DNA of 64,000 nt from Odontesthes bonariensis (Eukaryota > Chordata > Actinopteri > Atheriniformes > Atherinopsidae): assembly GCF_027942865.1 (NCBI RefSeq), contig NC_134507.1, positions 38,164,797-38,228,796 of the forward strand, read 5' to 3'. Position numbers and translations under genes: made by a program. The first letter of the stretch is position 1. Each line of letters starts with the position of its first letter. Positions 12,605 through 36,354 of this stretch are shown here, one piece after another. The notes beneath the pieces are model-generated. The model ran no database searches and was not told the DNA's origin. It saw only the letters and a list, made by a program, of their open reading frames with translations.

Positions 12605-12679
12605 AGTTTGCTTTGCTTTTGCTTTTCATCCACTTCATTGTTCATTGTTGACCTGTGCTCTTTTTTTCATCTCATTGTT

Positions 12680-12771
12680 GCAAGGGTCAGTACAGCCGGT
12701 GTGCAATGGCTGAGCCTCGTCCTGGGTGAACCACCTTCTTGATCATGGTATCTCCCCTGCCAGGTAAGTAT
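12680..12771 (-). pseudogene. U1 snRNA 5' part (nt 1-92), array left edge
   Basis: The first 92 nt of U1 with its full upstream spacer and promoter element, but the 3' 72 nt are absent. Left of 12680 the sequence turns into an unrelated T-rich stretch (12605-12679). Stem-loops I and II are present; the Sm site and the last stem-loop are missing, so it cannot give a stable U1 RNP. Confidence 0.92.
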
Positions 12772-12813
12772 GAGTTGGAACTGTCAGAGGCTGACACCTC
12801 TTTTCCAGGTGCC

Positions 12814-12833
12814 TCACTCGGCCGGACGGTGCA
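12814..12833 (-). promoter_or_regulatory. Presumed U1 proximal sequence element (repeated in every unit)
   Basis: Minus-strand GCACCGTCCGGCCGAGTG lies 44-61 bp upstream of the U1 start, where snRNA-type Pol II genes carry the SNAPc-binding proximal element. The same place upstream of the U2 fragment and the U5 gene also has CACCG. Equivalent sites recur every 712 bp (for example 13528-13545). No octamer motif was found in the spacer. Confidence 0.6.
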
Positions 12834-13319
12834 GCAAATTCAACTGTCTGCTGTGCCATGCCAGCAGCTAACCTGAATCTGAAAAGCTTGCAGATTAAAA
12901 CACTCCGGCTTTTCTTCATCTTTCTGATCAGTACTTGTTTCAACAACCAAGGACCTTGGAGCACAAATTTATTTAGTTTTTCCACTCTCCCCATCTCTAG
13001 AGCCACACCCACCCACACTGGGAAAATTCTTAGTTGAGGCAAACCCTCAAGGCTTAAAATCTCCAGTGCAGAAATGCTGCCGTATTCTCATCTCGTTGTT
13101 GCCATCACTAAGGCAACGCCCACCTGCCTGGGGTGACTGCACTGTATGACCTCACCTGACAACTGCGCAGCTGCATATCAGCTGTGCAGACCTGCCGCAG
13201 CATCCAGCAAACCTTGCAAAACATGGGTTTTAAAGATGGAAAGGTGTCGTTAAAGCAGCAACGCCAGGACAAAAACCAAGGTAGAGTTGCCCAGGGATAT
13301 TCTCGTTAAACAGTCAAAT

Positions 13320-13483
13320 CAGGGGAGAGCGCGAACGCAGTCCCCCACTACCAGAAATTATGCAGTCGAGATTCCCACATTTGGGGAATTCGCAAGGGTC
13401 AGTACAGCCGGTGTGCAATGGCTGAGCCTCGTCCTGGGTGAACCACCTTCTTGATCATGGTATCTCCCCTGCCAGGTAAGTAT
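13320..13483 (-). ncRNA. RNU1: U1 snRNA gene, copy A
   Basis: U1 pairs with 5' splice sites as part of the spliceosome. Read on the minus strand the gene starts ATACTTACCTGGCAGGGG, whose ACTTACCTG is the splice-site-pairing segment, and ends GCGCTCTCCCCTG. The length of 164 nt equals human U1. The U1-70K loop reads GATCAAGAAGG (human GATCACGAAGG), and the U1A loop keeps ATTGCAC. The Sm site is ATTTCTGG, which fits AUUUSUGG. A promoter element with CACCG lies 45-62 bp upstream (13528-13545). This copy's upstream spacer has a G/C-to-A type change beside that element (GTGCATCACT on the plus strand instead of GTGCCTCACT). Probably functional; expression cannot be judged from sequence. Confidence 0.95.
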
Positions 13484-14031
13484 GAGTTGGAACTGTCAGA
13501 GGCTGACACCTCTTTTCCAGGTGCATCACTCGGCCGGACGGTGCAGCAAATTCAACTGTCTGCAGTGCCATGCCAGCAGCTAACCTGAATCTGAAAAGCT
13601 TGCAGATTAAAACAGTCCGGCTTTTCTTCATCTTTCTGATCAGTTCTTGTTTCAACAACCAAGGAACTTGGAGCACAAATTTATTTAGTTTTTCCACTCT
13701 CCCCATCTCTAGAGCCACACCCACCCACACTGGGAAAATTCTTAGTTGAGGCAAACCCTCACGGCTTAAAATCTCCAGTGCAGATATGCCGCCGTGGTCT
13801 CATCTCGTTGTTGCCATCACTAAGGCAACGCCCACCTGCCTGGGGTGACTGCACTGTATGACCTCACCTGACAACTGCGCAGCTGCATATCAGCTGTGCA
13901 GACCTGCCGCAGCATTCAGCAAACCTTGCAAAACATGGGTTTTAAAGATGGGAAGGTGTCGTTAAAGCAGCAACGCCAGGACAAAAACCAAGGTAGAGTT
14001 GCCCAGGGATATTCACGTTAAACAGTCAAAT

Positions 14032-14195
14032 CAGGGGAGAGCGCGAACGCAGTCCCCCACTACCAGAAATTATGCAGTCGAGATTCCCACATTTGGGGAA
14101 TTCGCAAGGGTCAGTACAGCCGGTGTGCAATGGCTGAGCCTCGTCCTGGGTGAACCACCTTCTTGATCATGGTATCTCCCCTGCCAGGTAAGTAT
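14032..14195 (-). ncRNA. RNU1: U1 snRNA gene, copy B
   Basis: Same 164-nt sequence as copy A by eye, with the splice-site-pairing 5' end, both protein-binding loops and the Sm site. The upstream element carries the array-majority sequence GCACCGTCCGGCCGAGTG. Downstream, GTTTAAC about 11 bp past the 3' end could be part of a 3' box, though the match to the vertebrate consensus is weak. Confidence 0.95.
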
Positions 14196-14743
14196 GAGTT
14201 GGAACTGTCAGAGGCTGACACCTCTTTTCCAGGTGCCTCACTCGGCCGGACGGTGCAGCAAATTCAACTGTCTGCTGTGCCATGCCAGCAGCTAACCTGA
14301 ATCTGAAAAGCTTGCAGATTAAAACACTCCGGCTTTTCTTCATCTTTCTGATCAGTTCTTGTTTCAACAACCAAGGACCTTGGAGCACAAATTTATTTAG
14401 TTTTTCCACTCTCCCCATCTCTAGAGCCACACCCACCCACACTGGGAAAATTCTTAGTTGAGGCAAACCCTCACGGCTTAAAATCTCCAGTGCAGATATG
14501 CCGCCGTGGTCTCATCTCGTTGTTGCCATCACTAAGGCAACGCCCACCTGCCTGGGGTGACTGCACTGTATGACCTCACCTGACAACTGCGCAGCTGCAT
14601 ATCAGCTGTGCAGACCTGCCGCAGCATTCAGCAAACCTTGCAAAACATGGGTTTTAAAGATGGGAAGGTGTCGTTAAAGCAGCAACGCCAGGACAAAAAC
14701 CAAGGTAGAGTTGCCCAGGGATATTCACGTTAAACAGTCAAAT

Positions 14744-14907
14744 CAGGGGAGAGCGCGAACGCAGTCCCCCACTACCAGAAATTATGCAGTCGAGATTCCC
14801 ACATTTGGGGAATTCGCAAGGGTCAGTACAGCCGGTGTGCAATGGCTGAGCCTCGTCCTGGGTGAACCACCTTCTTGATCATGGTATCTCCCCTGCCAGG
14901 TAAGTAT
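14744..14907 (-). ncRNA. RNU1: U1 snRNA gene, copy C
   Basis: Identical by eye to copies A and B in the transcribed region and with the majority promoter element. The spacer just upstream differs from its neighbours by CTCACAGCTT in place of CTCACGGCTT near 15183. Confidence 0.95.
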
Positions 14908-15455
14908 GAGTTGGAACTGTCAGAGGCTGACACCTCTTTTCCAGGTGCCTCACTCGGCCGGACGGTGCAGCAAATTCAACTGTCTGCTGTGCCATGCCAG
15001 CAGCTAACCTGAATCTGAAAAGCTTGCAGATTAAAACACTCCGGCTTTTCTTCATCTTTCTGATCAGTTCTTGTTTCAACAACCAAGGACCTTGGAGCAC
15101 AAATTTATTTAGTTTTTCCACTCTCCCCATCTCTAGAGCCACACCCACCCACACTGGGAAAATTCTTAGTTGAGGCAAACCCTCACAGCTTAAAATCTCC
15201 AGTGCAGATATGCCGCCGTGGTCTCATCTCGTTGTTGCCATCACTAAGGCAACGCCCACCTGCCTGGGGTGACTGCACTGTATGACCTCACCTGACAACT
15301 GCGCAGCTGCATATCAGCTGTGCAGACCTGCCGCAGCATTCAGCAAACCTTGCAAAACATGGGTTTTAAAGATGGGAAGGTGTCGTTAAAGCAGCAACGC
15401 CAGGACAAAAACCAAGGTAGAGTTGCCCAGGGATATTCACGTTAAACATTCAAAT

Positions 15456-15619
15456 CAGGGGAGAGCGCGAACGCAGTCCCCCACTACCAGAAATTATGCA
15501 GTCGAGATTCCCACATTTGGGGAATTCGCAAGGGTCAGTACAGCCGGTGTGCAATGGCTGAGCCTCGTCCTGGGTGAACCACCTTCTTGATCATGGTATC
15601 TCCCCTGCCAGGTAAGTAT
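15456..15619 (-). ncRNA. RNU1: U1 snRNA gene, copy D
   Basis: Full 164-nt U1. A difference lies just past the 3' end: TAAACATTCAAAT on the plus strand replaces TAAACAGTCAAAT, inside the stretch where a 3' box would be expected, so 3' end formation could differ slightly. Confidence 0.95.
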
Positions 15620-16167
15620 GAGTTGGAACTGTCAGAGGCTGACACCTCTTTTCCAGGTGCCTCACTCGGCCGGACGGTGCAGCAAATTCAACTGTCTGCT
15701 GTGCCATGCCAGCAGCTAACCTGAATCTGAAAAGCTTGCAGATTAAAACACTCCGGCTTTTCTTCATCTTTCTGATCAGTTCTTGTTTCAACAACCAAGG
15801 ACCTTGGAGCACAAATTTATTTAGTTTTTCCACTCTCCCCATCTCTAGAGCCACACCCACCCACACTGGGAAAATTCTTAGTTGAGGCAAACCCTCACGG
15901 CTTAAAATCTCCAGTGCAGATATGCCGCCGTGGTCTCATCTCGTTGTTGCCATCACTAAGGCAACGCCCACCTGCCTGGGGTGACTGCACTGTATGACCT
16001 CACCTGACAACTGCGCAGCTGCATATCAGCTGTGCAGACCTGCCGCAGCATTCAGCAAACCTTGCAAAACATGGGTTTTAAAGATGGGAAGGTGTCGTTA
16101 AAGCAGCAACGCCAGGACAAAAACCAAGGTAGAGTTGCCCAGGGATATTCACGTTAAACAGTCAAAT

Positions 16168-16331
16168 CAGGGGAGAGCGCGAACGCAGTCCCCCACTACC
16201 AGAAATTATGCAGTCGAGATTCCCACATTTGGGGAATTCGCAAGGGTCAGTACAGCCGGTGTGCAATGGCTGAGCCTCGTCCTGGGTGAACCACCTTCTT
16301 GATCATGGTATCTCCCCTGCCAGGTAAGTAT
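16168..16331 (-). ncRNA. RNU1: U1 snRNA gene, copy E
   Basis: Full 164-nt U1 with all motifs. Its promoter element differs: the plus strand reads CGGCCTGACGGTGC instead of CGGCCGGACGGTGC near 16380, one change inside the presumed proximal element, which might alter promoter strength. Confidence 0.94.
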
Positions 16332-16879
16332 GAGTTGGAACTGTCAGAGGCTGACACCTCTTTTCCAGGTGCCTCACTCGGCCTGACGGTGCAGCAAATT
16401 CAACTGTCTGCAGTGCCATGCCAGCAGCTAACCTGAATCTGAAAAGCTTGCAGATTAAAACACTCCGGCTTTCCTTCATCTTTCTGATCAGTTCTTGTTT
16501 CAACAACCAAGGACCTTGGAGCACAAATTTATTTAGTTTTTCCACTCTCCCCATCTCTAGAGCCACACCCACCCACACTGGGAAAATTCTTAGTTGAGGC
16601 AAACCCTCACGGCTTAAAATCTCCAGTGCAGATATGCCGCCGTGGTCTCATCTCGTTGTTGCCATCACTAAGGCAACGCCCACCTGCCTGGGGTGACTGC
16701 ACTGTATGACCTCACCTGACAACTGCGCAGCTGCATATCAGCTGTGCAGACCTGCCGCAGCATTCAGCAAACCTTGCAAAACATGGGTTTTAAAGATGGG
16801 AAGGTGTCGTTAAAGCAGCAACGCCAGGACAAAAACCAAGGTAGAGTTGCCCAGGGATATTCACGTTAAACAGTCAAAT

Positions 16880-17043
16880 CAGGGGAGAGCGCGAACGCAG
16901 TCCCCCACTACCAGAAATTATGCAGTCGAGATTCCCACATTTGGGGAATTCGCAAGGGTCAGTACAGCCGGTGTGCAATGGCTGAGCCTCGTCCTGGGTG
17001 AACCACCTTCTTGATCATGGTATCTCCCCTGCCAGGTAAGTAT
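16880..17043 (-). ncRNA. RNU1: U1 snRNA gene, copy F
   Basis: Full 164-nt U1, last whole copy of the array. The promoter element is the majority type. The upstream spacer has one private change (ACAAATTGATTTAG for ACAAATTTATTTAG near 17240). Confidence 0.95.
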
Positions 17044-17591
17044 GAGTTGGAACTGTCAGAGGCTGACACCTCTTTTCCAGGTGCCTCACTCGGCCGGACG
17101 GTGCAGCAAATTCAACTGTCTGCTGTGCCATGCCAGCAGCTAACCTGAATCTGAAAAGCTTGCAGATTAAAACACTCCGGCTTTTCTTCATCTTTCTGAT
17201 CAGTTCTTGTTTCAACAACCAAGGACCTTGGAGCACAAATTGATTTAGTTTTTCCACTCTCCCCATCTCTAGAGCCACACCCACCCACACTGGGAAAATT
17301 CTTAGTTGAGGCAAACCCTCACGGCTTAAAATCTCCAGTGCAGATATGCCGCCGTGGTCTCATCTCGTTGTTGCCATCACTAAGGCAACGCCCACCTGCC
17401 TGGGGTGACTGCACTGTATGACCTCACCTGACAACTGCGCAGCTGCATATCAGCTGTGCAGACCTGCCGCAGCATCCAGCAAACCTTGCAAAACATGGGT
17501 TTTAAAGATGGAAAGGTGTCGTTAAAGCAGCAACGCCAGGACAAAAACCAAGGTAGAGTTGCCCAGGGATATTCACGTTAAACAGTCAAAT

Positions 17592-17666
17592 CAGGGGAGA
17601 GCGCGAACGCAGTCCCCCACTACCAGAAATTATGCAGCCGAGATTCCCACATTTGGGGAATTCGCA
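17592..17666 (-). pseudogene. U1 snRNA 3' part (nt 90-164), array right edge
   Basis: The 3' 75 nt of U1, including the Sm site and last stem-loop. It differs from whole copies by one base (GCAGCCGAG for GCAGTCGAG on the plus strand). Sequence beyond 17666 is unrelated, so this piece has no promoter. It complements the left-edge fragment with a 3-nt overlap. Confidence 0.92.
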
Positions 17667-18212
17667 GAAGATTTCCGAACTGAAGTGCAAAAGTCTACGT
17701 TTCTTGTAGACAGTTACGGCCTGTTATTGGCCTAGAGTCTACGTTAAATGTAGACTCTAGGCCAATCAGAGAGGAGTCTACATTCTAAACGTACACTCTA
17801 GGCCAATCAGAGAGGCTCTTGGCCAATTCAAGCCAAACCAACTCGCGAAATACCGAGAGGCTGCTACGAAGGTACAGTTTGTTACTACGATCATATTCTA
17901 GCGATATACCTCTGTAATTGATAAAAAATGTCCCGCATTTACCTACTACGATCATATTCTAGCGATATACCTCTGTAATTTATCAAAAAGATCACCTGTT
18001 TATTTGTAATAGGCTACAAGGTTTTTAGCGTAAAGCTGGGTGACCGGAGGGTGTTAGCAACGCTATAAAGTTTATTTTTTAGCAACAAAAAAGAATACAG
18101 CATGGCTATATTTATATCGTTTTCCTTTCTACTTTGTGAATGTCACATCAACAGAAAACAGATAACGTTTTTAATGTCGTAACATGGAAGTCGAGTGACA
18201 CCAGCGGCAGTA
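17667..18212. repeat. Spacer with short inverted and direct repeats; left copy of a flank duplication
   Basis: 17690-17815 holds repeats of GTCTACGTT- and CTAGGCCAATCAGAGAGG-like units, partly inverted. 17881-17995 contains a tandem duplication of about 60 bp (ACGATCATATTCTAGCG units). 17943-18212 is repeated with divergence at 19861-20155. No gene was recognised. Confidence 0.6.
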
Positions 18213-18401
18213 CAGGGGTCCGTTTCACGTAGCAGGTACAACCAACTCTGAGTCTATTCCTGATCTCTGAGTTGATCTACTCTGAGATAGAAAACCCTGA
18301 GTTTTCGGTTCCAGAAACGCTGATTTGAGTGAGGTTAATCAACTCTGAGTAAGTTCACCTTGAGTTTAGCGCGTGCACCACAACTTTAAAAAGCCAGCAT
18401 C

Positions 18402-18709
18402 AATGGAGCCCCGATTCGACGAGTCACCTTGGCAACGGGGAAGAGGAGGGGCTACGTTTTTCACCAACCTCGAATTGGAAATCTTAATGCGCTCATACGG
18501 CGAGTTTCAAAACGTTTTTAGAAATAAGTGCAACACCGCTGCAGCAGCAAAAGTGTAAGTTTACATGTAGTCCTTTGCAATCACAATAAAATTACAGGGG
18601 AAACTGCTTGAATGGTAGCCCATTCATTTATTTCATTTAGGTGAAATCCCGCAGGGGAGAAGCGCACTTGGCAGCAGTCTAAGATGAAATATAAAAACAT
18701 TGTTCAAAC
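18402..18709 (+). pseudogene. Harbinger accessory Myb/SANT-like protein, first two exons
   Basis: The frame starts MEPRFDESPWQRGRGGATFF and continues FTNLELEILMRSYGEFQNVF, the first helices of a Myb/SANT-like DNA-binding domain, up to a donor-like GTAAGT at 18556. Similarity resumes at about 18643-18709 with NPAGEKRTWQQSKMKYKNIV before GTGAGA. The remaining C-terminal part is not visible. In Harbinger elements this protein binds element ends and helps import the transposase. Confidence 0.7.
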
Positions 18710-18861
18710 AGGTGAGACCTCGGCATGGAGGTTCCTCATTTTGATCATGTTTTACACTGTAAAATAAATATTAAGTGGCTATTTGACTGTGCAGTTATTT
18801 TATTCCCAACAATGCTGTTTTCACACACATAAACTATGTCTTCTCATCTATACCATCCATC

Positions 18862-19045
18862 CATTATCTATACCGCTGAATCCGTCAGTCGGGTCGCGGG
18901 GGGGCTGGAGCCTATCCCAGCGGTCAATGGGCAAGGGGCGGGGTACACCCTGGACAGGCCGCCAGTCCATCACAGGGCCACATTAGAGACAAACGAGACA
19001 AACAACCATACACACTCACAGTCACTCCGAAGGACAATTTAGAGT
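18862..19045 (+). repeat. Dispersed teleost repeat inside the Harbinger element
   Basis: Contains the phrases GGGTCGCGGGGGGGCTGGAG, GGCGGGGTACACCCTGGAC and CCATACACACTCACA, which I recognise as a very common fish interspersed repeat, preceded by CCATCCATTATCTATACCGC. I cannot give the family name with confidence. Confidence 0.55.
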
Positions 19046-19860
19046 CATCATCTATATCATGTTCTGTTAAATAATTAAGCCTATTTAAACTAACACAGAC
19101 TTCTACTGAGCCAACAGAAATAAGGCAGATGCCCGTAAAACGGGTGGTGCCCAGCACCACCACCTCTAACGGGAGGGCAGTGTCTGAGGGAATCCCCGGA
19201 GGGAGTCCACCCCCAAGACACGAGTGCTTTTATAAAATATAATAGGCCTATATATGTCTTTTTTAAGCCTATTCATACAAATATTTATTTGTCTTTTATG
19301 TATTTTTTTTCTTTTGTCCCAACACATTCTGATGGTGCCGCTCAAAAAGATAATTGTCTGTAAATGCAAAAATCTATGCGCGGTCTGATAACCATCTCTG
19401 ACGAATATTTATTTTTCTGCGCAATAATGCTGCACCTTCATCCACGGGATCGTTGTCAAAAGGACATGTTCGTGAAAAAAGTTGCCTCCTACTGTGCCTA
19501 ATGGACTTCTAGAAGTAGAAGAACTCGCTCTGCTGACTGAATGAATGAGGAAATCAAATGGCGTGTGTGGCTGAAAGAGGGCGGAGACAGAAAGAAACTC
19601 AAGGTTTCTTGAATAAAACCTGGTCCCGACCAGGTTAGGTTCAGAGAGTCTGTTATTCCGGTAACTGACCGTGAGGTTAAGTTACCTCTCTTTGTGAAAC
19701 AGGCTAGAGTTACCCCTCTTTCTCGGGGTTGAGTTACCTCCCTTTGTGAAACGGAAAACTCAGGGTTTCCCTCATTTCAGGGTTAACCTACTCAGAGTTT
19801 TCACTAAACCTGCTACGTGAAACGGACCTCTGGTCTGCAGCCAGACCCTGTTGCTCGTCT

Positions 19861-20155
19861 GCGATCATATTCTGGCGATATACCTCTGTAATTTATTAAG
19901 AAGATCACCTGTTTATTTTTAATACAAGGTTTTAAGCGTGATGTTAAAGCTGGGTGACAGTACGCTGTAAATATCTCCGCGTTGCTCCATGGGTGTTTTG
20001 TTTAATCAACGCTATAAAGTTTATTTTAGCAAAAAAAAATATACAGCATGGCTATATTTATATCGTTTTCCTGTCTACTTTGTGAATGTCACATCAACAG
20101 ATAATAGATAACGTTTTTAGCGTTGTAACATGAAAGTCGAGTGACACCAGCGACA
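19861..20155 (+). repeat. Right copy of the flank duplication
   Basis: Diverged direct copy of 17943-18212: both contain GCGATATACCTCTGTAATTT, AACGCTATAAAGTTTATTTT, ACAGCATGGCTATATTTATA and AGTCGAGTGACACCAGCG. The right copy has about 40 extra bp (around 19960-20005). It lies just upstream of the three-exon gene, so it may be a duplicated promoter region. Confidence 0.75.
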
Positions 20156-20405
20156 GTGCACAAGCGCTCTTTCGAGCTGCAACTGTCAAGTGCGTCTGCG
20201 ATTTGGCCCGGAGCCATTATTTATGCAAAAAAAAAAAACTATCCACCTCGTTTGTATGAATTTTAATACGTGTTACATTTGCCTATTGTACATTTTCAAT
20301 TCTGGTGGCAATGCTATGGCTTTTGCCTCCATTTGTCTAATAATAGTGACTATTGCAATGGTTATAATGATCATGATATTGCTAAAAGTCTGTTGACAAT
20401 TTCAG

Positions 20406-20873
20406 GACATGGATACTTTGCTGCCAGCACTCAACATCCTGAACACCAGCCTGCCGGTAGAGAGGCAGCAATGCGTTCTGGCAGCCTCCAAGGCAGCCAA
20501 GGCCCAGCAGGGGAGAGGTCAGGTTTGTCCGATGGACGACAAACTAAGGGACCCCAAGACTGCCTTTGAGGAGGGTAAACATCTTGGCATTGCATTTATA
20601 CTATAAATATATAAGTAATGACAATGTGGTGCACTAGAGCTTTTGCTTGCCTATTCACTGAGGTCATAACATGTCTCGTCTTCAGCAAAGAGGCGCTGTG
20701 GTGTACAGAGGCCGACTGAGGCCCAGTACTTTGGGCAGCTGGTCCTGACCTTCTACACCGGCCGGACCTTTAAGTGGCTGGTCGAGAACGACGTGAGCTA
20801 CGTCAAGTAGTAAGCATTTACAAGAAAACCAAAGCAAGCCAGGAACAGTTTTCCCTTCACTGAAACTAACAGC

Positions 20874-20938
<65 letters not shown>

Positions 20939-21170
20939 TTCAGTCTCGTCGACCGCCACTGTAAAGAGAGCCGGCAGCCGGAGAAGCGTGGGGCCTTAAA
21001 CGAGGAGTGGCTGAAGGACAGCCTGCTGCAGTATGTGGAGCTCTTTCCGGCCATCTCCTGCCACCTCGAGAGGAACGTGGACAAGGCCATTTACGGCATG
21101 GGCCGTTTCCGGTCGTTCACGTTCCTCGAGATGTGGCAGTGGTACCAGCGCCACCAATCTGGTCAAATTG
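20406..21170 (+). CDS. Unrecognised gene fragment, three spliceable exons
   Basis: Exons 20406-20574, 20686-20809 and 20944-21170 have consistent phases and GT/AG borders (GTAAAC, GTAAGC, GTCAGT; TTTCAG, TTCAG, TTTCAG). The first ATG is at 20409 (MDTLLPALNILNTSLPVERQ), four bases into the exon, so it may be the start or an internal Met. The joined frame continues through CPMDDKLRDPKTAFEEA, YFGQLVLTFYTGRTFKWLVE, YLVDRHCKESRQPEKRG and CHLERNVDKAIYGMGRFRSF to EMWQWYQRHQSGQI. No stop interrupts about 172 codons. I do not recognise the family; the conserved look and clean splice sites suggest real coding descent. No further exon was found before the U1 fragment at 21716. Confidence 0.6.
20874..20937 (+). 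repeat. GT microsatellite directly before a splice acceptor
   Basis: About 32 GT units end six bases before the acceptor ATTTCAG of the third exon, where a pyrimidine tract would normally be. Confidence 0.95.
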
Positions 21171-21715
21171 GTCAGTGCTACAGGCACAATGAGTCGTGGA
21201 GTGTGTCAATTGATTCAACAATAACAGAGCCTAGTTATCAGAAATAAGGGCCATATAAATAAATGGCTTCTAGGGAAGTAGCATAAGAGGCGTAGGAGTA
21301 AGTGATAATCAATAATACTTTATTGAAAGAAAGGGAGCAAAAAAATACAAGGCATGAATTTTGAATAGCGTTTTGTTCATACACACACTTGAGATACAGC
21401 AAAAGTATGACAATAAATGCATTTAACACTTTATTCTGTTGATTGACATGACAAAACCATGCAAAAGCATGCCAGGAGGGGACTTTTGTGTGCAAATGGA
21501 TGCAGGGGGCTTATGCTTGGTGCAACTATGAAATTGTGTGCCATTTATGCTGTAATATCCTTGGCCTTCCTGGTCCTTCCTGGTCCACAAGACCTGGGGG
21601 AAGGCATATGCAAATTACTCTTTGGGTCAGTGACATCAGAATTCTTAATTGCACCTACATGGACTCTAAGCCTATGGCGTGCAGGATCAATTGCACTCCT
21701 ATTCAGCACATCGCC
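21171..21715. other. No gene recognised
   Basis: Presumably intron or intergenic sequence after the three-exon fragment. It contains an octamer ATGCAAAT at about 21608 with no supporting RNA gene. No coding similarity was seen. Confidence 0.5.
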
Positions 21716-21811
21716 ATTCGCAAGGGTCAGTACAGCCGGTGTGCAATGGCTGAGCCTCGTCCTGGATGAACCACCTTCTTGATCATGGTATCTCCCCTGC
21801 CAGGTAAGTAT
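21716..21811 (-). pseudogene. Lone U1 snRNA 5' part (nt 1-96) with shrunken spacer
   Basis: 96 nt of U1 from its 5' end, with one change (CTGGATGAACC for CTGGGTGAACC on the plus strand). Its upstream spacer is kept to about 21880, then jumps by an internal deletion to GAGGCAAACCCTCACGGC and on to about 21945. A stretch containing CATCCACTTCATTGTTC and CTCTTTTTTTCATCT follows; the same phrases lie just left of the U1 array (12630-12672). No 3' half, so not functional. Confidence 0.9.
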
Positions 21812-22006
21812 GAGTTGGAACTGTCAGAGGCTGACACCTCTTTTCCAGGTGCCTCACTTGGCCGGACGGTGCAGCAAATTGAGGCAAACCCTCACGGCTT
21901 AATATCTCCTGTGCAGACATGCTGCAGTATTCAGCAAAACTTGCTAAACATCCACTTCATTGTTCACGTGTGCTCTTTTTTTTCATCTTTTTGCTGCCAT
22001 CTCAAA

Positions 22007-23535: not shown

Positions 23536-26500
23536 AATTGGGGGCTCGCCCTTGTTCTATTTGCTAAAGTTTAGTGGGTAGTTTCTGAGCTTGGGGTTGT
23601 TGGTGGTGGCTTGATTGCTGCGCACCTGAGTGCTGATTACCCGCTGCCCTGCTGGGGGAGGGGTTGTTGGAAGTTTGCATGGCTTCAGTGGTTAGGTGAG
23701 GAGTTTCTCCTGGTGGTACTATTGTTGGGGGTAGGTTGAAACTTTGACCTGGTTGTTTTGAGGAAGTGCATGGTTTGGTATTGAAGTTGATTTGGTTTTA
23801 GTTTGAAGGTAGTTTGTGTTGTGGTAATTTAGTTTATGCGCGCTGTCTGTTATTGTTTTGGGCTGGTTGTCAGGGTAAATGTTGGTTGGTGTGTCACATT
23901 GGACCGTGTGTTCCCTCTGTTAGGCTAAGTGCATTTTCCCTTTGGAATCTGCTCATCTGTCCATAGTGTGGGGTGACGGCGGTTAGAGCAGTAGTCTCGG
24001 GGGCATGTCCATGGTTTTGGTGGTGTTTCCAGATGACTGGTCGCATGACCACACCAGTGGGTTTCAGTGCATAAATACCCGCTGCCAGATCCCCTGAAGA
24101 CTAGGGTTGAGTTGGTTTAGGTTAGTTTTGGTTAGGCAGTTTAGTTAGTGGGGGGACACACACTGAGTGGGGGTCAGTGATGACCTTTGGCACACTGGCT
24201 ACACTTGCTTTGTGACGCAGCACACGTCTGGTTTGAGCGCCTGAGTGTTTTTCCTTTCACTGCTCTTTTTCTTAATTAGTATTGACCTGGCTTGTATGTT
24301 GGAAACTTTTCTAGCTTAGAGATGGCTAGCATTGCTGAGTTTGTGGAAGCTCCGAGTTTAGAGTTATTGAATAGATTCACCAAAGACCAGTTACTCAGAG
24401 TAGCAGACCACTACAAGATAGGGATTAATGATAAAAAGTCAAATAAGGAGGTACTCGGGGTCTAATGATCAGGACTTTGACATTTTTCGCAATCTGCACC
24501 TGGTACCAAAGTTCAATGAAAAAGATCCAGAAACATTCTTTTCTCTTTTTGAATGCGTTGCTGAGGTCCGGAATTGGCCGGAGTCTGTGCGCACATTGAT
24601 GTTGCAGTGTGTATTTACTGGAAGAGCTCAAGAGGCCTATGCAAGTTTAAATTCAGAGGATAGTAAGCAGTACGCATTAGTTAAAAAGGCAGTGTTAAGA
24701 GCTTTTGAGTTGGTGCCTGAGGCGTACCGCAATTGTTTTCGTATGTGGCGGAAAAACGAGAAGCAAACCCACTTGGAATTGGCGGGTGATTTGGCGAGGC
24801 ATTTTGACCGTTGGGTTGCTGTGCTGGAAGTCAGTGATTGTGAGGGGTTGCGTGAACTTATAGTTCTCGAGCAATTTAAGAACACGTTACCTGAACATAT
24901 TGCTAATTACATCAGTGACCAGAAAGTGAAAACAGTTGCGAACGCTGCGGCATTAGCAGATGAATATGTGCTCAGGCACAGACGTTTGTTTGGTGAGCGG
25001 CGTCTGTTTAGCCGGCACCCACCTGTCTATCACCTGTAATGGCCATGGAAACGGGGCACGTTCTGATTTATGTGCAGTGGGTAGCTCAGTTAAAGTTGTT
25101 GCTACAGAGGATCATGGTGTTCGTAGCCGTGAGGAAAGAACCTGTAATTACTGTCATAAAAAGGGCCATTTACAAGCTGACTGTTATGCTCTTAAGGCTA
25201 AGTCAAACTCTAACCTCCAGTCTGTCTCTCAACCTAGGGCTAGAGGGGTGTCTATGGCTGTCTCAGTGCCACCTTCGCTGCCTTTGGTGGTGATGGGGGG
25301 GTTTCAGGTTGGGACTCATCAAAGTCCGGAACTGGAAAGTTAGACATTTTGTTAGTGATGGTTTTGTGTCTTTGGTGGGGAGTGACAAAAAAGTACCAGA
25401 TTGCGTGACACTGCTGCTTATGATACTTTTATCGAAGCGTCAGTTTTGCCATTCACTAGTGAGAGTGATACTGGGTCTTGTATTCCTGTGTTGGGTATGG
25501 GTTTAAATGTACTTCAAGTTCCCATGCATAACATCATGTTGTACTCCGATCTTTTCCAGGGACAAGCAGTTGTGGGGGTGCGTCCTGCTTTACCAGTGGA
25601 GGGTGTCAATGTGCTTTTGGGTAATGGCCTGGCTGGTGCCTGTGTGTGGGTTGACGTGCCGCCACAGTTAGAGGTGGACACGGTGCCAGTGGTAAGACAA
25701 CAGCCTGATGATAGTCAATCAGCATTCCCTGAAGTGTTCACAGCATGTGCTGTAACGCGTGCTATGACAGGGGATAAGTTTAATTCCAGCCTGTGTGAAT
25801 CAAATAAAAATGTGGGGTCGTTATCTATGTTTTCTTTGTCTGACTATCCCTTGTCAGTTTCGCAGGAAGAGTTGAAGGCGGAGCAAGAGGCTGATTGTTC
25901 CCTGCAAGGTTTGTTTGAGCAGGTGGTAACCGGTGCCCAGATAGAGAGCAGTGCTCGGGGCTATTTCCTTAAAGACTACCTGTTGGTAAGGAAATGGGTC
26001 CCGCATGGTCAGAGTTTTGTGGGTGATCCGATTATCCAAATCGTGTTGCCTGAGAGGTTTCGTGAACCTGTTTTAAAACTAGCTCATGAGGGGTCGGGGC
26101 ATCTTGGTGTTCGGAAGACATACGATCGGATTCTGAGGCTTTTTTTCTGGCCTCGGTTGAAACATGACATATCGGTACACATAAAAACTTGCCACACATG
26201 CCAACTAACAAGTAAGCCTAATCAGACTCTAAAACCTGCTCCTCTATTACCAATTCCAGCAGTCAATCAACCTTTTAAGCACTTGATCGTGGACTGTGTG
26301 GGCCCCCTCCTTCGCTCGAAATCTGGTACTATCTATCTTCTCACTGTAATGTGCCAAGCCACTCGCTATCCAGCAGCATACCCGTTGCGTACCATCACTG
26401 CTAGGTCGGTGGTGAGAGCGTTGTCACAATTCATCTCTATATTTGGCATTCCAAAAATCATTCAAAGTGACCAGGGTTCGAATTTCTCCTCACACCTTTT

Positions 26501-29500
26501 CTCTCAAGTGTTGAAGCAGCTTAACATCAAGCATAACAAAGCATCTGCGTATCATGCACAAAGTCACGGAGCATTAGAACGTTTCCATCAAACGTTGAAG
26601 TCGTTGCTACGTTCTTATTGCATTCAAATGGAAGGTGACTGGGAGGAGGGTTTGCCCTGGTTAATGCTTGCGGCTAGGGAAGTAGTTCAAGAGAGTACAG
26701 GGTTTAGCCCAAATTACTTGGTGTTCGGCCATACTGTACGAGGTCCGTTAGCCATTTTGAGGGACCAGTGGATGGGGGAGGACCCTCCCCGGAACCTGTT
26801 AGACTATGTGAATGGTTTTCGGCGTAGACTTTATGCAGCTGGCGAACTGGCCAGGGAGAAAATGGAGCATGTGCAGGGAAAAATGAAAAAGCTCTATGAT
26901 AGACGTACGGAACGGTGGGTTTTTAGTCCTGGTGATCGAGTACTGGCGCTGTTGCCCATCATAGGCTCGCCATTTCAAGCCAAATTTACTGGACCACGCA
27001 CAGTTTTAAGGAAGCTTTCTGATTTAAATTATTTGATTTCGACTCCAGAGCAAAACCACCCAATTGGGTCATGTGAACCTGTTAAAACCATATTATGAGC
27101 GTGCGTCAAAATCACCTGGGTATGGTGCACAGGTTATCGCGGCGAATTCTCATCCAGCATGTTTAGCGACTAGAGCATCAGCGGTCACTACTCCTTTGTT
27201 GGTGAGTGAGGTGGAGGCGGATGGGTTACCAGCTGTTGATCAAGCATTAACACATGGGCGGCTGAAAAACTCTGAGGCTCTCTGTAACCTTGAGGCATTG
27301 TAGCAACATCTGCCAGAGTTAGAAAGGGCAGTGTTGGCAGAGTTGATTAGGTATTTTCCATGTTTGTTTGGTGATACGCCTACTCAGACCCTCCTTATTG
27401 AACACGATATTGAGGTGGGAGATGTTCAGCCTATTCGTCAACGTTTTTTTTCGTGTCAATGCTGAAAAACGCAGGTATCTGGATGCCGAAATTAAGTATA
27501 TGTTGGAGAATGGCATAGCTGAGCCATCCTCCTCAAGCTGGGCATCGCCTTGCATCACGGTACCCAAAGCAGACGGCACACCAAGGTTTTGCACTGACTT
27601 CAGGAAAGTTAATGCTGTCACCAGACCTGACTCGTTCCCACTTCCTCGTATGGAAGATTGTGTAGATGAGGTTGGTCATACTAAGTTTGTAAGTAAGTTT
27701 GATCTATTTAAAGGGTACTGGCAGGTCCCTTTAACTCAGCGGGCCCAGGAAATTTCTATATTTGTGAAACCGAACGGTTTGTTTTCTTACAAGGTTATGC
27801 CTTTTGGCTTGAGAAATGCGCCAGCGACATTTCAACGCCTTATGACTCGTGTTCTGGGGGACCTGGAGGGTTGCGCTGTCTATTTGGATGACTTGGTGGT
27901 GTTTTCTGACTCTTGGCCTCAGCATGTCGAGCGCATCAGGGTGCTGTTCGGTCGCTTGGCTGAGTCTCACCGTGAACCTCTCAAAATGTGAGTTTGCCAA
28001 GGCGACAGTGACTTATCTTGGCCGAGTTGTGGGTAAGGGGTCCGTCCGTCCTGTGGCTGCTAAAGTGAGCGCGGTTGAAAATTATCCGGTACCAACCACG
28101 AAAAATGAACTGTTGCGGTTTCTTGGATTAGTGCGTTACTACAGGTGTTTTTGTCGCAATTTTTCCACTGTTGCATCGCCACTCACTGACCTTTTGAAGG
28201 CAAAGGCAGTGTATATATGGACCCCTGAATGTCAACAGGCTTTTGAGAACATTAAAGCCTTGTTATGTACAGCTCCTGTTCTTGAGGCACCACGGTTTGA
28301 CTGCCCTTTTTCACTGCAGGTAGATGCGAGTCACGTGGGTGCAGGTGCTGTTCTATTGCAAGCTGATGATCTGGGTGTTGATAAGCCAGTGAGTTTTTTT
28401 CCCCAAAGAGTTTAAGTCCTACCAACTAAATTATTCAACCATCGAAAAGGAGGCACTAGCTTTGATATGGGCTTTGAAACATTTTGGCGTGTATGTAGTT
28501 TCAGGCACTACACCCGTGGTGGTCTACACGGATCACAATCCACTAACCTTTTTGAACTCCTTGCAGTGTCCAAACCAGAGACTGATACGATGGTCTCTGA
28601 TGTTGCAGTCTTATGGGTTGGACATCCGATTCATAAAAGGATCAGAGAGTGTGGTGGCGGATGCCCTCTCTCGGGCCCATTAGAAGTATGGGTTGGCGAG
28701 GGGCCTGGTGTGTTAGGACAACTTTGATCGGTTGATGTCCCCTTCCAGTTCCGCTTGCTGTGTCTGTTCCTGCCTCCTGTCTTTCTCCTCTTAAATGCTC
28801 ACAGAAATCCTAGGCAAATCTCTGTTGCTGAGGAGCAAGAGTTTGGTGTGCTGGGGGCAGATGGCAGTGGTTGGACTGGAAACTCCCAATGGGACAAGTG
28901 TTTTATTTTCTGATTTGTTTTTTTTGATAACTTTTCATTGAGCATTTAATAGTGCTGGTTGTGTGTTGTACCTACTAGGTTTTAAACATATTTCGGTTCC
29001 CTATATGGAACCTCTTTTTAGGGGGAGGGTGTCACAGCCCCTGGGGATTGTGCCGGGCATGTCTCTCTCCTCCCTCTTTCTTTGTCTCCTCCCTCAGACC
29101 AGGAAGCTGATTGGAGTGTGCAGCAGTGATTGCGGCAGCTCGTACACCTGGCCGTCTGTGGGAGTGGATTTAAGCCGCCTTATTTTGTTAATTCTTCCCT
29201 TTTGGTTCCTGGCTGGGTTTGTGAGAACAGCAGTGTGTTTTGGGATTGTTTGTGTCAAGTGTTTCTAACAGGTCAAGCTTTCCCACACTTGAAAAGGGAA
29301 GGGTCTCACACTCCCGATAACTAGACGCAGGACTTCACTCAGTGCTTTATCCTTTTTCTTTATTTTGCTTTTGGCACAGTTGAAAAACCTTTAACAAATC
29401 AAACACAAACAAATTATTAACATAGAAAAGCAAAGTATTGCTAGATATATATATATATATAATTACTTCAGTGTACACAGATAAATTTAGCCATCTAACA

Positions 29501-30658: not shown

Positions 30659-31017
30659 AGTGACTCATCCGCTTCACCTGCGGGCGAGCGGTTGCCGGTG
30701 TCGGTGCATGTGCGCGCTCCCGCTGAGTGCAGGGGAGAACGGTCAGAAGCAGGCGCGGGCACTCATCATTGTCACTCACTCACCGCAACAGTTTGCTTTA
30801 TCCTTTTGTTATGTTTCGCACCATACAACACCTTTGCCGCACATTTATGCTCCATAACACCACTACACTACTGATGACTGATTGCCACATCCCATTGTTT
30901 TACTTTTGTTGAATTCGTAGCTTAAGTTCGAATTGTTTAAATAAATTTGATTTCCTTATAACTTACAAACCGTGTGCTTCCTCCTTTTTGATACGGCTTT
31001 TGAGCCAGGTTGTGTCA

Positions 31018-33466
31018 TTAGTAAAAGCAAAGGTAAAATCACAGCTTTGATGATTAAAACCTTTCCTTCAATGGTCAGTCCTCTAAGTCCCCAGTATCCT
31101 AGTCTTTGCTTGACTTTCCCTACCACGTCTGGCCAGTTTGATGTCCCTCCTCCTTCCCTGTCAAAATTAATCCCCAGTATTTTCTGTTTTGTCTGGGTTA
31201 TAGTCACGGGGAGTCCTGCAGTCTCAGTCGCTGTCCATGGCCCATAAAATTGGGCTTGGGTCTTGTTTCTGTTTAGTTTTGCCCCAGAGGCCCGTCCATA
31301 CCAGTCGGTCAAGTCCAGAGTCCTATTGATAGATAATAGGTCTGTACATAAAATGTTCACGTCGTCCATATATAAAACACACTTTGTCGATAGTCCCCCA
31401 CTCCCCGGGACTCTCACCCCATTGATTCGGTGGTCCCTTCTCAAGCTCTGTGCCAGTGGTTCGACACAGATGATGTAGAGTAGGGCAGATAACGGACAAC
31501 CCTGACGGACACCGCAGTGGATGTTTACTGCTTTTGTCAGATGCCCGTTAACAAGGAATTTGCTGGTAATGCCCCGGTACAGCAGACCCACCCAAGCTAT
31601 AAACCTTTCTGGGAACCCCATTTTTGGCAGTACCTGGAAAAGGTACTGGTGCGAGACCCGATCAAAGGCTTTCTCAAAGTCTAAATTTAGGACTGCTAGC
31701 CGAATGTTTCTGTCTCTCGCATAACAGATGGTGTCTCGGATCAGTACGAGGCTGTCGGTTATCTTCCTCCCCGGGATGGCACAGGCTTGATCCGGGTGAA
31801 TCAGGTCTTCTAAAAACAAGGACATACGTGAGGCTAAAAGTTTACTAAAAAGTTTACAGTCAAAGTTTAAAAGTGTAATCGGTCTCCAATTCTTCAAGTC
31901 AGTCTTGTCTTTTTTTTTGTGAAGAAGAGTCACTATCCCTGCTCTAAAACTGTCAGGAAGTCGCTCAAGTTGCTCAAATTCCATAAAAACAGTAAACAAG
32001 TCAGGTGCTAAAATATCCCAAAAGGTCAAATAAAATTCCAAGGGAAGTCCATCTTGTCCTGGGGACTTCCCTTTCTTAAAATTTGTAAAACATTTATTTA
32101 ACTCTGAAATGGTAAAATCTTGGGTTAAAAGCACACTGTCTTTTACTGTTTTTTCTATGAAATTTAAAACTTCTGTCATGGTGTCCATTTCAACAGGTTT
32201 TTGTTCGTACAATTCACGATAAAATTGTTCAACAGCTTGTTTAATTTCTTCCATTGAATCAACTGTGCACCCGTTCTCTTTTGTTAGCTTTAAAATGGCC
32301 CCCCCTTTATTCACAATTTTCTTAAAAAAATACCTTGTGCACTTCTCTCCTTCCTCTATTTCTCGTTCCCTGCTTCTTAAAATGACACCCTTACTTTTAA
32401 TATCTGCTAAAATCGACATCTCTGTTTTCACTTGTTTAATTTCATCATTAAAATCCATCCCTTGTTGGTTTAATTTAAAATAGCGCTGTAGTCGCTTCTG
32501 CAGTCCCATCATGCGTCTGTTTTCCCTGTTCTTTTTTCTCCTACCTGCCTGTCTAAAGAAAGTCTGGGTCTTTTCCTTCACCATTTCCCACCAGTGTGCA
32601 CGTGTATCGTAAAAGTCTTGAAGGGTCTGCCACTCGTGGTACTGCTCCCGGTACTGACTAACTATTTCATTTTCTTTTAAAAGGGAGCAGTTTAGTTTCC
32701 ACAGACCACTTCCGGAAGTCACACCCGAAGAGAGTGATAGGGTGCAGGAAAGCATCAGGTGATCAGAAAAGAAAACGGGGGTCAATCTAGCATCGGTTGG
32801 TGGGCAGTCCCGTGTAAAAAGGTAGTCTATACGAGAGGCTCTGGTGCCATCACCACTGAACCAGGTGAAGCCCTCCTCTCTGGGATGCATGGTTTTAAAA
32901 CAGTCCTGAAGTTTAAAATCCTTGCATATGCCCTGTAATAAAACCGATGTTTTGTCAACTTTAAAAAATTCCCCTGCTCTTTTTCTGTCACTCCTGCTTA
33001 AAATACAGTTAAAATCACCCCCTAAAACTAGTGGTGCCCTACCTAGCATGTGGGACTGCAGGTCTTCTAAAAGGTCATACCGGTCATTTTTTTCGTTAAA
33101 GCCATAAATATTTAAGAGGTTAAAATCTTGTCCCATAAAAGTCAAATGTGCTAAAAGTGCCCGTCCGTCTCTCACCACAGTGCTGCCCTTCACCAGAACC
33201 TGAGGGTTTTTGATCAAAATGGCCACTCCATCATTTTTGTTTTGGTTGGATCCACTCCACAATGATGTCTGTGGCCACATCTCCTCCCACTGTCTGTAGT
33301 GCTTTAAAAACGGTAGGCCGCATTCCTGTATTAAAAGAACATCTGACTTAAAAGAACTAAGAAAGGATAAAACACTCTGGGCTCTAACTTTCCACTTTCC
33401 ACTTCTCACATTAATAGTTGAGAGAGTGAGTGTCATGAGTATGGTTAAAAACAACAGGTATGACAT
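31018..33466 (-). pseudogene. Tx1 LINE ORF2, N-terminal part: endonuclease and RT core
   Basis: About 816 codons before the gypsy insertion, starting MSYLLFLTILMTLTLSTINV. The endonuclease shows LLIQECG, LLNIYGFN, LGGDFNCIL, SRIDYLF and FFSDHL. The RT follows with SPGQDGLPLEFY, NWRPITLLNFDCKL, LNLDFEKAFDRV, GVRQGCPLSALLY and the catalytic YMDD. No break is seen before the insertion at 31017. The same frame is taken up again at 23090. Confidence 0.88.
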
Positions 33467-33515
33467 CTTAAAAGACTAAATGAGGGTTAAAACATTTAAA
33501 ATGACTTAAAAGCAG

Positions 33516-34829
33516 TTATGTAATTTCTTGTGAACGGAGCTCTTCCTTCACTTCTACAGGTGAGAGGCGAGGGTGTTGAGCTCTATTCCCCGGTCGGACT
33601 CTGGGGGTCGGCCTCTGTTGCAAGGTTTTGTTAAACTTTGAGTCTCTAGGGGTTGATTGCAGAACTACATTTAAAAAAGAGACCTCATTTGGTGAATTGG
33701 AGGGGAAGACTCTGGGCTCCTCCACAGATGTACTGTCTGAGGTAGTCCCAGCTCTTCCCCTCTTCTCTGAGACTATAGGAGAATCAGAGGACAATTCTGA
33801 TGCAAGCCTCTTTGTTTGCTGGGCATCTGGGAGGGAGGCATCCTCGCTATCATCCTGTGATTGGACTTCTTCACATTCTGAACGAGCTCCGCCTTCTGCC
33901 TGCACCACCTCCTCCTCCTCCTCTCCAGAACTCTCCATTGGTGGGGGTGTAGCAGGCCCCTCCCCCTCCTCGGCCTCACCTGACTGCTGTCCACCATTCA
34001 GGGATTTTGGCGGGAAGTTTGAATTTTCCAGCCCAGCTGTTTCAAGTAGCTCGTTAACTGCCTCGGTCTGCCCTCCATTTCCTTCCCGCGTTTTTTTGGA
34101 TTTCAATTTGTTGGCAAAGGATTTTGGGCAATCTCTGAAGAGGTGGTTTGATTCTCCACAGAGATTGCACTTTCTGCCATTCGTACACTCTTCGAAGGTG
34201 TGACCGATTCCTCTACATTTGCCACAAAACACCTTCGTGCAGGCCTCCACCAGGTGCCCGTGCTCCCCACACTTGCGGCAGAGTTTGGGCTGTCCCTGGT
34301 AGTGGATGTAGCCTCTGTTTTCTCCCAAGACAATCATTGATGGGAGATGTTTCAGGCCCTGGAAGCCCTGGGGGTCTTGCCATTGTTGGATGGGGACCCT
34401 CCAGGCGCAGTTCCAGATGCCGTCAACATCCCTCACCTTCATTGCCTGGCCTTTAACAGTGCAGAATCTTCCCAACCATATACAGATATCTTCTGCGTTC
34501 ACCATTTCATTGAACATTCTGACAATTACTGTCTTCAGAGTATTGTCAGTAAGTTTCTCAACAGTAAACGCAGAAAACTGGGCTTGCACATTACCAAATC
34601 TCATCCAAAATTCCTGCAGCAAAGCTGCAGTGCGAAAACTTACATCGAAACCTTTGTTAAAAGGCAATGACAGGATGCAATTCAAATCGTCTGGCTTGAA
34701 GTTCAATATATTTTGAATTAGCTTCCGAGAGAAGTCCAATCTGGACATCTCTATATGCTTTCCTTCTTTTTCTTTAAATAAAAATCTAGCGCTGTGGTGC
34801 CTCCTCATGCCAGCATAGTTTGCCGACAT
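33516..34829 (-). CDS. Tx1 LINE ORF1: CCHC zinc-knuckle RNA-binding protein
   Basis: 437 codons starting [20 protein letters not shown]. Residues about 185-245 hold three closely spaced zinc knuckles: [28 protein letters not shown] and [14 protein letters not shown]. The C-terminal 180 residues are acidic and low in complexity ([15 protein letters not shown]). This layout fits ORF1 proteins of the Tx1/L1 group, which coat the element RNA. The upstream ATG is followed by no other in-frame start for some distance, and the stop at 33516 lies 49 bp before the ORF2 ATG. Confidence 0.85.
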
Positions 34830-35183
34830 GATGGAGGCACCACAAACAGTTTTTTAAATAAAATGCTTAAAAGAACAATAATAAATATCACACTAAAACC
34901 CAATAAAAGAGTAAAAAGTGGATAAAAAGGTACTAAAAAGGGATACTTACCTTCCTCCAAAAAAAAAACAAAAACGGAACAACGACACCAACCCTGTTTC
35001 AGCTGAAACTCGTTCAAAAAGCAAAAACCTGAAAAAAGGGGGTAATAAAGGAAAATTTTGACAAAGAACTGCAACTGCAAAAGAGTTGGAATACTTTCAC
35101 CACGCACAAAAAAGAACCTCCAAAGCGTGAGGATTTAATGTCGAAAAGGCATAAAATAGTCCACCCAAAGGAGGCGATCGCAG

Positions 35184-35209
35184 TCTTAGCCAAAAGGCCG
35201 AGAAGCGAT
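35184..35209 (-). pseudogene. RNU2: U2 snRNA gene, first 26 nt, cut by the Tx1 LINE
   Basis: Minus strand reads ATCGCTTCTCGGCCTTTTGG and then CTAAGA, the exact 5' end of vertebrate U2 snRNA. At nt 27, where U2 continues TCAAGTG, the LINE sequence begins. The upstream promoter element is intact. The rest of U2 was not found in the window. Because gene and LINE point the same way, the U2 promoter now faces the LINE. Confidence 0.92.
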
Positions 35210-35507: not shown

Positions 35508-35626
35508 GGCTTCACCCGCAAAGGTAAAGCCTTCCAAAAATAGAAACAACTCATTAATGTTGCTCTCCACGGAAGTCTTTAGTAAAAGGCGAAAGACTTG
35601 TACGTTATGAAGAGAAACCAGAGTAC
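35508..35626 (-). ncRNA. RNU5: U5 snRNA gene
   Basis: U5 aligns exons in the spliceosome. The minus strand starts GTACTCTGGTTTCTCTTCA. It contains the invariant loop 1 segment CGCCTTTTACTAAAG and the following TTCCGTGGAGAG, then an Sm site ATTTTTGG, and ends with a hairpin from GGCTTTACC to GGGTGAAGCC. At 119 nt it is close to the usual 116. The stem-loop 1 arms covary (AAGTCTTTCG against CTAAAGACTT). The first base is G rather than the usual A. A promoter element lies 47-64 bp upstream. It is in the same orientation as, and about 300 bp upstream of, the U2 gene start. Probably functional. Confidence 0.93.
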
Positions 35627-35672
35627 GAGTATTTGACACTGCGGGAGCAGTGCATCAGGCCAGTTGGCATAG

Positions 35673-35690
35673 CCACCTTCCCCACGGTGA
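35673..35690 (-). promoter_or_regulatory. Presumed U5 proximal sequence element
   Basis: TCACCGTGGGGAAGGTGG (minus strand) lies 47-64 bp upstream of U5 and resembles the vertebrate snRNA proximal element, which often reads TCACCGTG followed by AAGTG. Confidence 0.65.
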
Positions 35691-35929
35691 GCTTTGCTTG
35701 GTTGAGACGCTGGCTCCTCGGCCGACCAGGTAGGAACAATCGGGCCCTATTCAATGGCTGCTTTGTCTTTTACTCTGTGCAAAAGACTAGGGGTCTTGAG
35801 GCTTTGTTCTGACCGCTCATTGGGTGTAGAGCTTTTTTTCAAGCAATTCTCCCAGTCGCCCAATCCCAGAGCCATCTCAAAGTGGAGTTCACTTTCACTC
35901 TCTTTTCGCAGACTAAAAGCCAGAGTTTT

Positions 35930-36008
35930 ATCTCAGAAGCTAAGCAGAGTCGGGCCTGGTTAGTACTTGGATGGGGAGACCGCCTGGGAATACCAGGTGC
36001 TGTAAGCC
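35930..36008 (+). pseudogene. 5S rRNA gene, 3' two thirds
   Basis: Starts at ATCTCAGAAGCTAAGCAGAG and runs to GGTGCTGTAAGC, then CTTTTGG. It keeps the A box, intermediate element and C box of the internal promoter, with one extra G in ATGGGGAGACC, but lacks the first 35-40 nt. Oriented opposite to the full copy at 36236, with 3' ends facing. Confidence 0.9.
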
Positions 36009-36229
36009 TTTTGGCTTCTCCAGGCACATGCAGTTTGACTGCGTCAAATGCAAAGGCAGTCCCTGTTTGACTTTTTGGAACTGCTCCTTTGTCAGGACAA
36101 AGTTAAATGTATGAGGATCAAAGGCAACCATGACCTGGGACACCTTAGCAGATCCAGGATCAGCAAGATGGATCACAGGGTGATCAACAGATGTTTCAAC
36201 AAAAGACATGCAGAGAGAAGACAAGAGAG

Positions 36230-36234
36230 AAAAA
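36230..36234 (-). terminator. Pol III T-run after the 5S gene
   Basis: Five T residues on the minus strand start two bases after the 5S 3' end (GTAAGCATTTTTC). Confidence 0.75.
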
Positions 36235-36235
36235 T

Positions 36236-36354
36236 GCTTACAGCACCTGGTATTCCCGAGCGGTCTCCCATCCAAGTACTAACCAGGCCCGACCCTGCTT
36301 GGCTTCCGAGTTCGGACGAGATCGGGCGTGTTCAGGGCGGTGTGGCCTGTCTGC
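36236..36354 (-). rRNA. 5S rRNA gene
   Basis: 119 nt on the minus strand, from GCAGACAGGCCACACCGCCC to GGTGCTGTAAGC, directly followed by a T5 Pol III stop. Internal promoter: AAGCCAAGCAGGGTC (A box, one change from AGCTAAGCAGG), GGCCTGGTTAGTACTTGG and GATGGGAGACCGC. The first 10 nt deviate from the fish consensus (GCTTACGGCC) and CGCTCGGGAA replaces CGCCTGGGAA, so it may be a variant or a decaying copy, though still near full quality. 5S RNA is part of the large ribosomal subunit. Confidence 0.88.

Follow-up and report, generated by a model that had tools for sequence, protein, structure and literature searches.

The DNA analysed here is a 64,000-nucleotide window of the Odontesthes bonariensis genome (contig NC_134507.1, positions 38,164,797 to 38,228,796 of the forward strand), in which a tandem array of U1 small nuclear RNA (snRNA) genes at window positions 12680–17666 adjoins an insertion that is likely to be a Dada-U1 DNA transposon. 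Six full-length U1 genes lie on the minus strand at 13320–13483 + 712k (k = 0 to 5), are 164 nt long each and are identical to the letter in a script comparison. Matches to the Rfam family RF00003, together with this comparison, bear out the six whole and two partial U1 genes at a 712-bp period that had been described in a first-pass annotation of the window. Scoring of each copy with RF00003 had also been proposed there; all six reach 158.2 bits (E = 9.1e-41, model positions 1–166 of 166), far above the Rfam gathering score of 69.5. The strand of the genes and a further U1 fragment at 21811–21716 are additions to that annotation. The array and its left edge comprise the following features.

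12619 to 12679, plus strand: left flank, similar to the outer right flank at 21941–21996 (76.2% over 63 columns, E = 5e-9)
12680 to 12771, minus strand: 5' part of a U1 gene (nt 1–92), 100% identity, interrupted within the 6-bp Dada-U1 site, where GC is all that remains of ATTCGC
13320 to 13483, minus strand: intact U1 copy 1 (RF00003, 158.2 bits)
13484 to 14031, minus strand: spacer of 548 bp upstream of copy 1, one of the series that recurs with the 712-bp unit
13539 to 13543, minus strand: CACCG resembling a proximal sequence element (PSE), at -60 of copy 1
14032 to 14195, minus strand: intact U1 copy 2 (158.2 bits)
14744 to 14907, minus strand: intact U1 copy 3 (158.2 bits)
15456 to 15619, minus strand: intact U1 copy 4 (158.2 bits)
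16168 to 16331, minus strand: intact U1 copy 5 (158.2 bits)
16880 to 17043, minus strand: intact U1 copy 6 (158.2 bits)

Both partial genes exist, but the one on the right is not a separate partial copy. It aligns to U1 nt 90–164 at 17666–17592 with 98.7% identity and is detected by Rfam as a broken seventh gene (17592–17727, 70.9 bits). In a self-comparison of the window, the fragment at 21811–21716 corresponds to U1 nt 1–96 (98.96% identity) and is followed by the promoter and part of the spacer. When the flanks of 17666–21715 are joined and one ATTCGC is removed, the result is a gapless 164-nt U1 gene, free of additional bases, that agrees with the intact copies at 162 of 164 positions. The flanks thus restore a whole U1 gene behind a target site duplication, and the right-hand partial is therefore half of a seventh gene, which a 4,050-bp insertion has divided. 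That the right copy had simply been truncated was ruled out, since the missing half of U1 is located past this insertion. The same junction bears on a further origin, in which an extrachromosomal circle of seven units was opened at one point in U1 and integrated: the stretch 12680–17666 measures exactly 7 × 712 + 3 bp, and its two ends lie at an equal place within U1 and have GCA in common. Such a circle is rejected as highly improbable, because no genomic flank begins at the right end, and the other half of U1 lies 4,050 bp further on, behind the duplication. The features of the split gene and the insertion are listed below.

17592 to 17665, minus strand: 3' half of the seventh U1 gene (nt 91–164), one substitution
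17660 to 17665: target site duplication ATTCGC, left copy
17666 to 21715: 4,050-bp insertion, Dada-U1-like
17685 to 17691: GTGCAAA, the left subterminal motif, separated from the duplication by 19 nt
18214 to 19831: nested element with terminal inverted repeats, GTCCGTTTCACGTAGCAGGT common to both ends
21690 to 21696: ATTGCAC, the right subterminal motif, separated from the duplication by 19 nt
21716 to 21721: target site duplication ATTCGC, right copy
21716 to 21811, minus strand: 5' half of the seventh U1 gene (nt 1–96), one substitution
21812 to 21951, minus strand: what remains of the outermost unit, its promoter and a spacer with a deletion

In its published description, Dada-U1 is characterized by a GCGAAT duplication and by subterminal GTGCAAT/ATTGCAC repeats that recur at an equal distance in U1 (PMC3706591); Kojima (2022) gives the Dada-U1 target as ATTCGCAGGGGTC and places the element in five orders of ray-finned fish (PMC8869645). 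The present insertion point, at U1 nt 91–96 (ATTCGC AAGGGTC), coincides with the published target, and ATTCGC on both flanks corresponds to the 6-bp duplication GCGAAT. The sequence is ATTCGC-N19-GTGCAAA at the left end and ATTGCAC-N19-ATTCGC at the right, while intact U1 itself reads ATTCGC-N19-GTGCAAT; the right subterminal motif agrees at 7 of 7 positions, and the chance expectation for one such 12-base pattern in the window is ∼0.008 matches. The ends carry no terminal inverted repeats, as in Dada-U1, when the printed ends are compared by eye only. Because the site, the duplication and the 19-nt subterminal motifs all match those published, the insertion is likely to be a Dada-U1 DNA transposon. 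The zebrafish elements Dada-U1A_DR and Dada-U1B_DR, as described in the two papers (PMC3706591, PMC8869645), have the same U1 site, duplication and subterminal motifs. However, these elements span ∼9.5–11 kb according to the coordinates in the paper, compared with 4,050 bp here, and the present insertion differs from them in having no recognised transposase, in carrying a nested element and in its left motif.

The insertion also bears on the length of the duplication. The published flank, CTGCGAAT, is compatible with either an 8-bp or a 6-bp duplication, of which the authors prefer 6 bp (PMC3706591). U1 in the array reads TTGCGAAT, one base off the published flank. The 5' half beside the insertion also reads TTGCGAAT, and the 3' side reads CTGCGAAT, with the CT belonging to the insertion's side. 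This single copy favours the 6-bp over the 8-bp duplication, because the array U1 reads TTGCGAAT where the published flank reads CTGCGAAT, although a later change is possible.

Within the insertion, no transposase or homologue was recognised in comparisons that included no Dada protein. A Pfam scan of six stop-free stretches left the four from the insertion without a family at E up to 1; translation of the insertion in all six frames yielded a single Pfam match at E 0.1 (PF06024, E = 0.072), below the cut-off of that family; and a homologue search with one exon-like stretch returned eight candidates, none at E ≤ 1. Since no transposase was recognised, 17666–21715 has probably decayed or is a non-autonomous copy. 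The nested element at 18214–19831, which we take to be Harbinger-like, is flanked by a direct duplication within the insertion (17946–18211 and 19859–20157). Exon-like open stretches without a Pfam match lie on the plus strand of the insertion at 20415–21247, with a GT repeat between them.

The first-pass annotation had stated that the transcribed parts are alike and the spacers slightly different, and the seven units, taken in phase, agree with this: the intact genes do not vary, and the units differ from the consensus at 9, 4, 0, 2, 0, 3 and 4 of 712 positions (units 0 to 6). Variation within the seven units is confined to 19 sites, of which 18 fall in the spacer and one in U1, the latter only in the split copy. 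The probability of finding 0 of 18 variable sites in intact U1 is 0.009 if sites are independent, an assumption possibly violated by conversion and by one cluster of four sites. The left edge unit is the most divergent, and edge units 0 and 6 have two common variants that are absent inside the array. In the outer fragment beyond the insertion, two differences occur in the first 161 nt, and one piece of the remaining spacer matches at 41 of 44 positions and another at 43 of 50. This pattern agrees with exchange that weakens towards the ends of the array. Near-identical arrays are often collapsed in assemblies, and it is rather unlikely, though worth weighing, that the unit number is an assembly product and that the true array is longer or shorter. 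Units 2 and 4, identical across 712 bp, are what such a product might contain; however, private variants in five of the seven units make at least these separate, and no artefact is needed to explain the junctions of the insertion.

The 164-nt length, a 5' end able to pair with 5' splice sites (ATACTTACCTG) and an Sm site of ATTTCTGG were all found as the first-pass annotation had claimed; nt 1–11 are as in human U1, which served as the reference here and below. The human Sm site is ATTTGTGG, from which the array U1 differs at nt 130. The U1A loop, also said to be kept, retains ATTGCAC but has A instead of T at nt 72. Two double compensatory changes relative to human U1 have a probability of ∼0.006. 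The first 32 nt of U1 (with one position C or T) had no exact match in the viral and genome contig sets scanned. Upstream, the pentamer CACCG lies at -60 of U1, -60 of U2 and -63 of U5 within the window; a PSE is expected near -60. A shared pentamer at matched distance occurred in 8 of 5000 shuffles, in a test that was made after a three-way motif score.

As the first-pass annotation had proposed, the U1 genes here probably form a live and homogenised locus, a reading preferred on sequence evidence because of the Rfam scores, the invariance of U1 relative to the spacer and the promoter-like pentamer at -60. That annotation had also described the locus as surrounded by dead transposons, which overlooks what matters most, namely that a transposon-like insertion sits within the array itself, in one of its U1 genes and at the published Dada-U1 target. 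Taken as a whole, we hold with good confidence that the locus is a six-gene array, predicted to be live and homogenised, with a seventh gene split at the Dada-U1 target by a likely Dada-U1 transposon.

A number of observations weigh against this interpretation. For the transposon, they are the absence of a recognised transposase and the left subterminal motif, which agrees at just 6 of 7 positions. For homogenisation, the divergence of unit 6 ties with that of unit 1, even though the left edge is the highest. For a functional promoter, the three-way comparison of the regions before U1, U2 and U5 by an ungapped motif score fell short of significance (a value reached by 140 of 300 shuffles), a second CACC stands at -40 of U1, and no clear octamer, SPH element or 3' box was found at U1, the best 3' box candidate having 6 of 14 mismatches. 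For the RNA, 42 of 46 helix pairs are canonical compared with 45 in human U1, the pairs 19–45, 52–87 and 58–81 being newly mismatched, and random substitution reaches 42 with a probability of 0.10, so that pairing is not clearly better conserved than by chance. The three mismatched pairs, canonical pairing no better than that, the change at Sm nt 130 and the lack of a clear distal element or 3' box would all be expected if a divergent U1 had been duplicated in tandem as a recently amplified pseudogene array, with copies that are alike through youth and not expressed. We nevertheless consider this unlikely, given that 18 of 19 variable sites fall in spacers and none in intact U1, that there are two double compensatory changes, that nt 1–11 are intact and that the Rfam score lies far above the gathering score. 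Returning to a live array, its U1 may possibly be a stage-specific variant, because developmentally switching U1 isoforms have been reported for several animals (PMC4291461).

Both ends of 12680–17666 coincide with the Dada-U1 target site. On the left, the U1 fragment starts at 12680 within the 6-bp site, where just GC of ATTCGC remains, and the chance of a break within a 7-junction window of the 712-bp unit is ∼1%, as calculated post hoc. This left end is likely to be the repair scar of another Dada cut that was joined to other DNA. A serious rival, to which we assign a considerable probability short of even, is that the left end is unrelated to Dada and that an old deletion or recombination at the edge broke U1 in the same 6 bp by chance. 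A search beside 12680 found no Dada end, which counts against a Dada scar, and the resemblance of the left flank to the outer right flank at 21941–21996 suggests an older rearrangement of the edge; the ∼1% chance for 7 of 712 junctions, with its post hoc character, argues against this rival. A short direct repeat (76%) at 12619–12680 and 21941–21996 encloses the array plus the insertion.

With a Dada cut as the preferred origin of the left end, the following course may be proposed. RNA polymerase II would transcribe each unit from the PSE-like core at -60, and unequal exchange or gene conversion would maintain the similarity of the units. Dada transposase would recognise U1, whose own ATTGCAC sits 19 nt away as in the ends of the element, and would make a staggered cut into which the element inserts, ending the seventh U1 gene; the left array end would arise from another such cut joined to other DNA. 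In a bolder form of this proposal, Dada-U1 shapes the array that it parasitises, with site-specific cuts in U1 setting both ends and repair from neighbouring units driving homogenisation. We regard this form as speculative and distinctly improbable as it stands; if true, Dada would be the DNA-transposon counterpart of R2 in ribosomal DNA (rDNA). R2 in Drosophila rDNA (PMC11700107) offers an earlier example of site-specific breaks from which exchange within an array starts and, like Dada here, is a target-specific element within a tandem array of essential RNA genes. However, R2 belongs to the retrotransposons and has demonstrated effects on copy number, whereas for Dada such a role is no more than a proposal.

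Dada-U1 insertions and fish U1 clusters have each already been published, and a limited full-text literature search found no published report of an array ending at a Dada site. The locus resolves to the base what appears to be a live U1 array, along with the loss of one gene to a U1-targeting transposon, with both ends of the stretch at the transposon's site. The role of target-specific DNA transposons in the turnover of snRNA arrays thereby becomes testable.

Other snRNA sequences lie further along the window. The first 26 nt of U2 occur at 35184–35209, in the orientation of the U1 array, by comparison with human U2 (the Rfam match is below gathering), and the same query did not find the remainder of U2 in the window. 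U5 and 5S genes at 35514–36354 share the strand of the U1 array and the U2 fragment, and a second, inverted 5S fragment lies at 35887–36008. A Dada-5S insertion in the 5S fragment near 35887–36008 was considered and rejected, as the published Dada-5S target is uninterrupted there when its letters are matched by eye. These sequences may possibly be the remains of an old 5S–U5–U2–U1 cluster. Linkage of 5S to U1, U2 and U5 is reportedly known in Solea senegalensis. According to PMC4696792, fish U1 is linked with U2 and other snRNA genes, and tandem U1 genes are clustered near other snRNA and 5S genes as here; the present locus differs in that it is a short array whose 712-bp units are resolved to the base.

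The U2 fragment abuts a non-long-terminal-repeat (non-LTR) element at 22.5–35.2 kb, with endonuclease and reverse transcriptase at 30956–33475 and a zinc-knuckle open reading frame at 33516–34853. According to PMC4640811, Keno, which has an apurinic-type endonuclease, targets U2, and by analogy the U2 fragment and this element may represent a Keno-like setting. NLR domains were recognised in the window; together with Dada-U1 and the nearby 5S, U5 and U2 genes they suggest that the host is likely to be a ray-finned fish. A retroelement at 24422–28415, which we take to be Gmr1-like, has integrase domains (25386–27098) preceding the reverse transcriptase (27347–27991), an order unusual for Ty3/gypsy.

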